From contig CAINNF010000012.1 of the NCBI GenBank assembly GCA_903851045.1, positions 1-37,188 on the forward strand: DNA of 37,188 nucleotides. The letters run 5' to 3'. The notes under the pieces were generated by a model that had not been told where the DNA came from, did no database searches, and was given only the letters and a program-made list of their open reading frames with translations. Within the stretch, counting starts at the first letter, position 1. Each line of letters begins with the position of its first letter. Source of the stretch: Candidatus Adlerbacteria bacterium. Its GTDB lineage: Bacteria; Patescibacteriota; Minisyncoccia; Phycocordibacterales; SBAW01. Position numbers and translations under genes: made by a program. Below, in pieces: positions 4,858 to 30,127 of the stretch.

Positions 4858-4880
4858 CCTTGTGGTGAGCGCAGTCGAAC
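4858..4880. repeat. REP-like repeat copy 1 (CTTGTGGTGAGCGCAGTCGAAC)
   Basis: Near-identical to copies at 15182, 15616 and 23451. Confidence 0.75.
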
Positions 4881-4885
4881 CAGGG

Positions 4886-5041
4886 ACGACTAAAAAATCC
4901 CCTATTCAGGGGATTTTTTAGTCGGACTGCGAAAGCAAGCGTCTTGCGTAATTTCAAGTGGGTGTTCTGTGGACCACACCACGGTGCTGCCCAACGCCGA
5001 ACTCCCTGCAAAACACTTAAGGACATTTGCCCTCGTAGTCC
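4886..5041 (-). ncRNA. Candidate rod-like small RNA with 6S RNA-like architecture, ending in an intrinsic terminator
   Basis: Minus-strand -10 TACAAT at 5048-5053 puts the start near 5041. The 5' GGACUacGAGGGC pairs with 3' GCUUUCgcAGUCC, and AAGUGUUUUGC pairs with GCAAGACGCUU (with G-U wobbles), leaving asymmetric bulges. Followed by a perfect terminator hairpin ACTAAAAAATCCCC-TGAATA-GGGGATTTTTTAGT. Confidence 0.5.
4889..4925 (-). terminator. Long perfect-stem intrinsic terminator (bidirectional)
   Basis: CGACTAAAAAATCCCC TATTCA GGGGATTTTTTAGTCG. Confidence 0.9.
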
Positions 5042-5077
5042 TTTCCCATTGTACCAAACAGGGGGAAAAAGCAATAT

Positions 5078-6367
5078 CTATTGAACAAAGAAGCTACCAA
5101 TCGGCGATACCGAGCTTTTTGCCAACACGAGAGGCTTACCATCATATGCAAGACCCCATTCGTTGTTTGTCCAAGCGGGAGGATCAACTATCCCACCATT
5201 CATTATCTGAATATTCGGTTTCTTCCATTGTGTATGTACCTCATCTACCGAAACAACCCGTGTTGGTTGTGCGTTTGCTACGATTGGCAGTGTCCAGTAT
5301 TGTTCTATCATCTGCTGTTTCGTGTCCGTTTTACAAGCCGATACTGAATGTGTACCAAAGAGTATGTGCGTCTCGTCAGGAGAATATTCGATATGGTCCA
5401 CGATCTCATTGGCAGGAACGTACGACACTACTGTCGTGCTGGCTATGGGGTCGACCATACTGATTCCAGTCGCTGCGTCCGAAGCACCCATCTCGCCTTG
5501 TTGGCACGGATCAGCAGCAATAGCTCTAGCCATAACAAAATACTTGCCTGATGAGCTTGGATGATCGAGAACAGGAGAACTCCCCAACTGATGAAGCTGG
5601 TTATCGACAGGACTGAAATACGTGTAAATGGTTGGACCAGAACCTTTGGGTACACGGTAACTGAGAATAATATTCCCATCCGATCTCCACGCAACCGCCT
5701 CGGCAAATTCTTGTGTCGTAGAAGATGTATACAAAGCGGTACGCTCTCCCGACCTCACATCTACACTATACAGAGCACTACCATTCTCGGGCGGAGTATA
5801 TTCGCTCCCGTCCGACACAGCGACATGAGTGCTATCGGGAGAAAAAGCGACACCATTCCCAACGACGCTCTTGGGAAGAAAGATCGTCTTGAGACTACCA
5901 GTGACAAGATCCAGGACATCGAGTTTACTTTCAAGACCGATAGCAAGATAGTGGTGGTCAGGACTAAGCTGCATCGTGGATGGGTAGGCAAACTCACCTA
6001 CTGCACCAACGGTTGCTAGCACTTCGGACTTATGGTTACCGACCTTTCGCCAGATTGCATAAGTCGTCCATTCGCGCTCTGATGTTGTGGTACCAGAATC
6101 CGCAACAGCGAAAAGAGTGACGAGATTCGAAGGGGTGCTCGTGGCGACATCGATAATACTGATCGTTGGTGTTGGTTGACTCGTCTGCGACTGTTTCTGC
6201 TCGACCATTACCGACATGATCGGAATCTGCGTTTGGAAGTACTTCATGTACGCATATACACCAACAAGCAGCAGGAGCGTGGGGACACCAATAATCAACA
6301 CATACGAACGCTGCTGGGGCACTGGCACTTGTTGTTCTTGTGGCGGCATACACGAAAAGGATAACAT
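5078..6367 (-). CDS. Membrane-anchored beta-propeller (WD40/PD40-like) protein
   Basis: N-terminal TM (SYVLIIGVPTLLLLVGVYAYMKYF) and repeated propeller-like blocks (LSPDHHYLAIGLE, FSPDSTHVAVSDGSE, YSPDETHILFGTHS). Confidence 0.75.
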   Translation of the reverse strand: MLSFSCMPPQEQQVPVPQQRSYVLIIGVPTLLLLVGVYAYMKYFQTQIPIMSVMVEQKQSQTSQPTPTISIIDVATSTPSNLVTLFAVADSGTTTSEREWTTYAIWRKVGNHKSEVLATVGAVGEFAYPSTMQLSPDHHYLAIGLESKLDVLDLVTGSLKTIFLPKSVVGNGVAFSPDSTHVAVSDGSEYTPPENGSALYSVDVRSGERTALYTSSTTQEFAEAVAWRSDGNIILSYRVPKGSGPTIYTYFSPVDNQLHQLGSSPVLDHPSSSGKYFVMARAIAADPCQQGEMGASDAATGISMVDPIASTTVVSYVPANEIVDHIEYSPDETHILFGTHSVSACKTDTKQQMIEQYWTLPIVANAQPTRVVSVDEVHTQWKKPNIQIMNGGIVDPPAWTNNEWGLAYDGKPLVLAKSSVSPIGSFFVQ

Positions 6368-28840: not shown

Positions 28841-28959
28841 TGTTGTCTATTGGTCTCCGAGGAGACGTGGATCAACTCTACTGTGTCCTCCGTAGCTTCA
28901 GCGGAGGGGGATGTCTGAAGAGTCTTCGAGACTATACACTACCCTTTTTATTTGTGCAA
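28841..28959 (-). promoter_or_regulatory. Promoter plus ~90-nt structured leader of rplC
   Basis: TTGCAC-17 nt-TATAGT on minus (28931-28959); leader contains CCTCCG-CTGAAGCTA-CGGAGG and GTCTCC-TC-GGAGAC hairpins before ATG at 28840. Confidence 0.7.
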
Positions 28960-29074: not shown

Positions 29075-29476
29075 TTAACGACGTCGCTGGTGTGGAACGT
29101 ACACCACCTTCCAGCCCGCACACACACCAAGCGTACCCGCCTCTATGTCTCGATAAGGACGTAGAGTTTTCTGCACCTCCAAGATAAACAGGATTGCTGC
29201 TATGTCACGGCACATACCAACCCAAAGCAATCGATCATCAAGTTTTTTAGTCAGAGGTGGTGATGCGAATTGGTACATAGCCTGCAACACACCACTTCTA
29301 CCATGATAGTAAGTGTACCCCGCATGGAGGGCCTTCAGACGCTCCGTAGCCACTCCAAGTACCGCTCCGTTATGGGGAACAGGTTCGATTGGCGGCACGA
29401 AGATGTGGTTAGATAGAGACTCGACTTGCAACTCGACTTCCCTTAGGGCAAAAGCCAAGAACAGCATGCCATACAT
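29075..29476 (-). CDS. Orphan hypothetical protein between rpsJ and rplC
   Basis: 133 aa, perfect SD CTAGGAGGTCCCCATG; MYGMLFLAFALREVELQVESLSNHIFVPPIEPVPHNGAVLG... Confidence 0.65.
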   Translation of the reverse strand: MYGMLFLAFALREVELQVESLSNHIFVPPIEPVPHNGAVLGVATERLKALHAGYTYYHGRSGVLQAMYQFASPPLTKKLDDRLLWVGMCRDIAAILFILEVQKTLRPYRDIEAGTLGVCAGWKVVYVPHQRRR

Positions 29477-29552: not shown

Positions 29553-29793
29553 CAAACAAAACCCCACCTGATGTGGTGGGGCGGACAAATGAGAACTTGT
29601 TGAAGAAAGGAACTTCCCTGGCCGGTCTGGGGCGCTCGACACCTGCATTGGAGAGATGCGAGGGAACTGCTCCCAGACCGGCCATTCGACTTAGTTGATA
29701 CCATTCCCGATTTGGACTATCTCCATACCAAAGGGGGTCTGGCTACTAGGTGGTCACACGGCGCCCAGCGCACACATGACCATTCAACTAGAT
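29553..29793 (-). ncRNA. Candidate ~240-nt structured ncRNA (or attenuating leader)
   Basis: Strong minus promoter TTGCAT-17 nt-TATAAT (29800-29828); stem TAGTTGA/TCAACTA enclosing hairpins; perfect long-range stem TGGCCGGTCTGGG/CCCAGACCGGCCA; ends in CCCCACC-ACATCA-GGTGGGG-TTTTGTTTG terminator. Confidence 0.55.
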
Positions 29794-29856
29794 AAGTACA
29801 TTATATAACACATATAAAATTTATGCAAGTCCCACACCAAACATGGGCTCCGGACA

Positions 29857-29906
29857 CGAAAAAGCCCCTTGCCAATCAACGTAGACCAACAAGGGGACTC
29901 TTTCGT
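29857..29906 (-). terminator. Minus-strand terminator
   Basis: CCCCTTG...CAAGGGG followed by CTTTTTCG on minus. Confidence 0.65.
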
Positions 29907-30127
29907 AGTAATTCTTTTATTAGCTGCCAACCTTCTCCAAAGGTTAAAAACCAACAATAGAACCCGAATGTATCAGGACTAATTACTGAATGTTCATGAT
30001 CTCGCACAAAAGAACGAGAACCAACTCACATCCTATCAAAGAAACTGAACGTATCAAACCGTATTGTGCACAATCCAGTGACACCACTTTCAAAAGTCGC
30101 TCTCACACCACAACTTTTTCAATGCAG

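Follow-up and report, generated by a model that had tools for sequence, protein, structure and literature searches.

This locus raises the question of whether a strongly folded stretch inside a ribosomal operon is a gene for an RNA of its own or a control element of the small open reading frame (ORF) behind it. The window, a 37,188-nt contig stretch from a Candidatus Adlerbacteria bacterium, carries the RNA locus on the minus strand at 29828-29555, flanked by rpsJ (30552-30184) and rplC (28840-28193), which lie on the same strand and are both named by Pfam. A sequence-only reading had proposed a structured noncoding RNA of ~240 nt here, acting either as a standalone RNA or as a terminator-controlled riboregulator. 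Judged by sequence, the gap divides into four independent transcription units, all on the minus strand: an upstream RNA (~30033-29857), the ~240-nt structured RNA (29793-29555), a 133-aa orphan ORF (29476-29075) and the leader of rplC (28841-28935). The second unit probably represents a genuine accessory small RNA, and an independent gene for an accessory, structured sRNA that probably acts in trans is the explanation we favor, with moderate confidence.

The boundaries of the unit can be read on both sides. A predicted TTGCAT-17-TATAAT promoter occupies 29800-29828, with the -35 box at 29828-29823, the -10 box at 29805-29800 and a 17-nt spacer between them, and the unit closes with an intrinsic terminator, GCCCCACC-acatca-GGTGGGGT followed by a T-rich tail (29554-29582, stem 29582-29561); both had been pointed out in the sequence-only reading and are present as described. 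The RNA was accordingly delimited as 29553-29793, its 5' end being estimated from the -10 box and its 3' end from the terminator. With just three of the six consensus letters in TTGCAT, the promoter escaped a simple generic promoter scan. The predicted promoter is of the lineage's own type, like the rplC promoter of most relatives: TTGCA-16to19-TATA[GTA]T or a close variant precedes rplC in 32 of 41 rpsJ-rplC gap stretches of relatives, a count that includes two stretches each from several genomes. No open frame accounts for the stretch, and a 64-aa ORF inside it has no Pfam match.

The ~240-nt RNA folds far more stably than expected from its composition, with a minimum free energy of -100.7 kcal/mol compared with -76.2 +/- 5.2 for shuffled sequences (z -4.73; 0 of 200 shuffles reach the value). 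Removal of the terminator leaves the score at z -4.9, and control stretches from three neighboring coding sequences score 0.19, -1.32 and -0.64. When folding was scanned across the window, the stretch at 28.9-30.2 kb accounted for many of the segments with the strongest folding. Four sites in the 37-kb window, among them a 13-bp stem of this RNA, carry a perfect inverted repeat of 12 bp or more within 60 nt, and 16 inverted-repeat seed hits were observed compared with a mean of 0.2 in shuffled windows.

Fold and repeats define three parts ahead of the terminator. Domain I (29692-29790, inverted repeat I5) consists of the enclosing stem that had been noticed earlier, TAGTTGA (29790-29784) with TCAACTA (29698-29692), around two predicted hairpins at 29782-29751 and 29743-29700. 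It is followed by hairpin H3 (29619-29684, inverted repeat I1), built of a 13-bp lower stem, a bulged A, a middle stem, a 4-nt 3' bulge and an apical stem. The long perfect stem claimed beforehand is real, formed by TGGCCGGTCTGGG (29684-29672) and CCCAGACCGGCCA (29631-29619), whereas the supposed 39-nt insert between its arms measures 40 nt and is itself paired. A weakly folded linker containing the pyrimidine-rich stretch TTCCTTTCTTC (29583-29618) leads from H3 to the terminator. On the same strand, the 7-mer CCAGACC of domain I (29736-29742) could pair with GGTCTGG in the 5' arm of H3 (29673-29679) and, on paper, could compete with the H3 3' arm.

Homologues were sought by DNA similarity, hairpin pattern and covariance model, with a single relative as the result. 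A DNA search of 41 family genomes returned only the RNA itself, yet a covariance model built from this single sequence (R1) identified one relative, in Candidatus Adlerbacteria bacterium C4_bin-407 (G025), with an E-value of 2.6e-5 among rpsJ-rplC loci and of 2.1e-4 when whole family genomes were searched; over 197 genomes of the order, R1 found only itself and nothing further. The hairpin pattern GGTCTGGG-N20-50-CCCAGACC is likewise confined to the window and G025 among the 41 family genomes. The homologue lies in the same rpsJ-rplC gap in the same orientation, is preceded by TTGCAT-17-TATAGT, is followed by a terminator and folds with z -6.3 relative to its own shuffles. Its H3 lower stem is near-identical, with 12 of 13 pairs kept and one of them as G-U; the sequence of this stem is itself conserved, more than a need to keep the pairs would demand. 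Both hairpins share the bulged A, a GUUC middle stem and the 4-nt 3' bulge, and three compensatory changes (U-A to C-G, C-G to U-A and A-U to G-C) separate the apical stems of the two sequences in a manual alignment that takes one inserted base on the 5' side. The 5' half as a whole, domain I included, has diverged beyond convincing alignment. As these two are the only known members, alignment depth does not support a covariation test. Pattern scans beyond the family gave nine matches on genome contigs, of which only the Adlerbacteria one was judged homologous, and eight on viral contigs, which have only the patterned arms in common and look like chance; a distant blastn search against phage records gave no match. 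The closest relatives, G032 and G033 (82% rplC identity), are without the RNA, and the gene is therefore accessory and dispensable. Collectively, its own promoter and terminator, its folding and a syntenic homologue with kept hairpin topology and compensatory changes support a stand-alone RNA.

Such a distribution also suits the main rival to the sRNA reading, a functionless passenger: a selfish, transcribed cassette or remnant lodged in an insertion-prone gap and doing nothing for the cell. The RNA is patchily present, in 2 of 41 genomes, and the content of the gap is variable. Where relatives carry both genes on one stretch, the gap measures from 125 to 1747 nt and holds changing sets of small units, each with a promoter and terminator of its own, including folded RNAs, small ORFs and a PaaX_M gene. 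In other genomes a palindrome-bordered PaaX/Cas2-like element occupies this very gap. Against a passenger without function, both species retain an intact promoter and terminator, the topology of H3 is preserved with compensatory changes, and no recognized mobile-element gene lies inside the unit. We consider this explanation unlikely, albeit deserving of serious weight.

The gap of this genus collects small independent transcription units. The PaaX_M (Cas2-like) domain gene was seen in gap stretches L009, L015, L017, L024 and L066, the domain call coming from a Pfam run on the L009 copy, and has palindromes such as TATGAATAATTCTGCTATAGCATAGTTATTCATA at either end; gene and palindromes together resemble a small mobile element that has entered the ribosomal operon. 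Large, stable and unrelated-looking RNA units of ~270-330 nt were observed in L016, L009 and L067 (the gaps of G022, G011 and G029). Among the other folded RNAs of the gap, the one in L016 scores z -6.6, and the second and third units of L020 score -6.3 and -5.1. A third stand-alone RNA, marked by the motif CCTAGTA and stable stems, is found on the minus strand in G025 and G027 (L020 2294-2409 and L025 2298-2414), with 85% DNA identity and three compensatory pairs between the two copies. A covariance model of this RNA (R2) matches neither the window nor the genome it comes from, so that, at this sensitivity, no single family unites these RNAs.

The upstream RNA of the window (29857-30033, minus strand) constitutes a second RNA family and is the better-supported new family of this locus. 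It is conserved, and shows covariation, in 13 or more genomes of the genus; in an alignment of 13 genomes, 16 of its 28 predicted pairs have both partners changed in one or more sequences, many of them in the terminator hairpin. Its layout comprises a first hairpin, a U-tract pairing with CAAAGAAA and a terminator; it is absent from Rfam, and its covariance model (R3) gives strong matches inside the genus only. At the other end of the gap, the rplC leader (28841-28935, minus strand) reads GACTC...GTTGATCCACGTC..GGAGACCAATAGACAAC, is conserved across the genus and is a candidate autoregulatory ribosomal-protein leader. One might go further and see in the gap a dedicated, fast-changing locus, in which one genus-conserved and several lineage-specific structured RNAs under rplC-like promoters perhaps tune translation or host-cell interaction, a proposal that we regard as speculative and rather doubtful.

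The riboregulator half of the initial proposal fared worse than the standalone half. In its explicit form, the RNA would be a cis-acting attenuator or riboswitch that governs ORF 29075-29476 through read-through of the terminator at 29582-29561. The geometry is suggestive, as the ORF starts ~80 nt past this terminator with a good Shine-Dalgarno sequence, and competition between CCAGACC and the H3 3' arm would offer a switch. The alternative pairing is not kept in G025, however, and the ORF is preceded, past the RNA terminator, by a separate TATAAT box, albeit with a poor -35, and ends with its own terminator. Earlier described as an orphan, the ORF has indeed remained one: its protein has no match in Pfam, PHROGs, NCBIfam or PADLOC, and it has no homologue in the 41 family genomes or among plasmids. 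A single weak match, in G005, runs antisense to a frame read as nusA, and matches on viral contigs cover merely 14 residues; structure prediction without an alignment gave no usable model (pLDDT 36). In G025 the unit after the homologue is not the ORF but another stand-alone RNA, the one shared with G027, so that the gene downstream of the RNA differs between the two members, a thin comparison at that number. With no homologue of the ORF and a different RNA in its place, cis-regulation of the ORF is unsupported, and we consider an attenuator improbable. Very improbable is a type III toxin-antitoxin system with the RNA as antitoxin and the ORF as toxin. The order of parts resembles that of toxIN (promoter, structured RNA, terminator, small ORF), but the RNA contains no tandem repeats (score at least 30), the ORF has no Pfam, NCBIfam or PADLOC match, no ToxN/CptN/TenpN-type toxin is found downstream in these databases or in PHROGs, and G025 has the RNA without the ORF.

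For an independent sRNA gene, the parts suggest the following mode of action. The lineage-type, sigma-70-like promoter would start the ~240-nt RNA and the intrinsic terminator would end the transcript, which most likely acts in trans. H3 would lend stability and offer a surface for protein or RNA recognition, and the pyrimidine-rich linker (29618-29583) may be the segment that contacts targets, for example purine-rich ribosome-binding sites; the one hint to this role is that the long-stem RNAs of L016, L020 and L025 also carry similar pyrimidine-rich linkers 3' of the long stem.

Comparison with known families leaves the RNA without a name. At gathering score, the covariance models of Rfam 15 have no match anywhere in the window; the best sub-threshold match in the region, anti-hemB, is meaningless at 15.1 bits of the 49.5 needed (E 0.92). 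The sequence-only reading did not recognize it as tmRNA, RNase P RNA or SRP RNA, and neither Rfam nor ARAGORN gives a match in the window. ARAGORN finds no tRNA and no tmRNA there, which sets a tmRNA aside, and a candidate RNase P RNA of this genome sits elsewhere, at G000:C18:83527-83982 (E 1.2e-26, 85 bits, cut-off 100). A housekeeping RNA would in any case not be expected in merely 2 of 41 genomes. Elsewhere in the window, the stretch 4880-5060 (minus strand), located after ORF 5078-6367 and before a gene with a beta-CASP/metallo-beta-lactamase fold, has a promoter-like TACAAT, is strongly folded and closes with a long hairpin plus T-run; it has no Rfam match over threshold.

Taken alone, the ~240-nt RNA is one more orphan sRNA, a new and probably minor RNA of a known kind. 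A limited search of the open-access literature returned no study on small RNAs of this ultrasmall-bacteria lineage, and a gap of the core ribosomal operon that repeatedly gains independent structured RNAs would be a concrete starting place for one, with the adjacent, genus-conserved upstream RNA as a testable family.

Among known systems, terminator-type riboswitches and leader attenuators likewise place a structured RNA with a terminator at its end in front of an ORF, but the ORF here has its own promoter box, the homologue is followed by a different downstream gene, and no conserved alternative pairing is seen in the RNA. The type III toxin-antitoxin systems toxIN, cptIN and tenpIN are alike in the order of promoter, structured RNA, terminator and small ORF and differ by their tandem repeats, their toxin families and a linkage that is not seen in G025. 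Although tmRNA, RNase P RNA, SRP RNA and 6S RNA are likewise stand-alone, structured and of comparable size, the ~240-nt RNA matches none of them in Rfam or ARAGORN and is confined to 2 of 41 genomes. It fits no Rfam family in sequence, but with bacterial stand-alone, trans-acting sRNAs it has in common an intergenic position, a sigma-70-type promoter and an intrinsic terminator of its own, as expected of a stand-alone sRNA, together with stable hairpins and a weakly folded, pyrimidine-rich linker.
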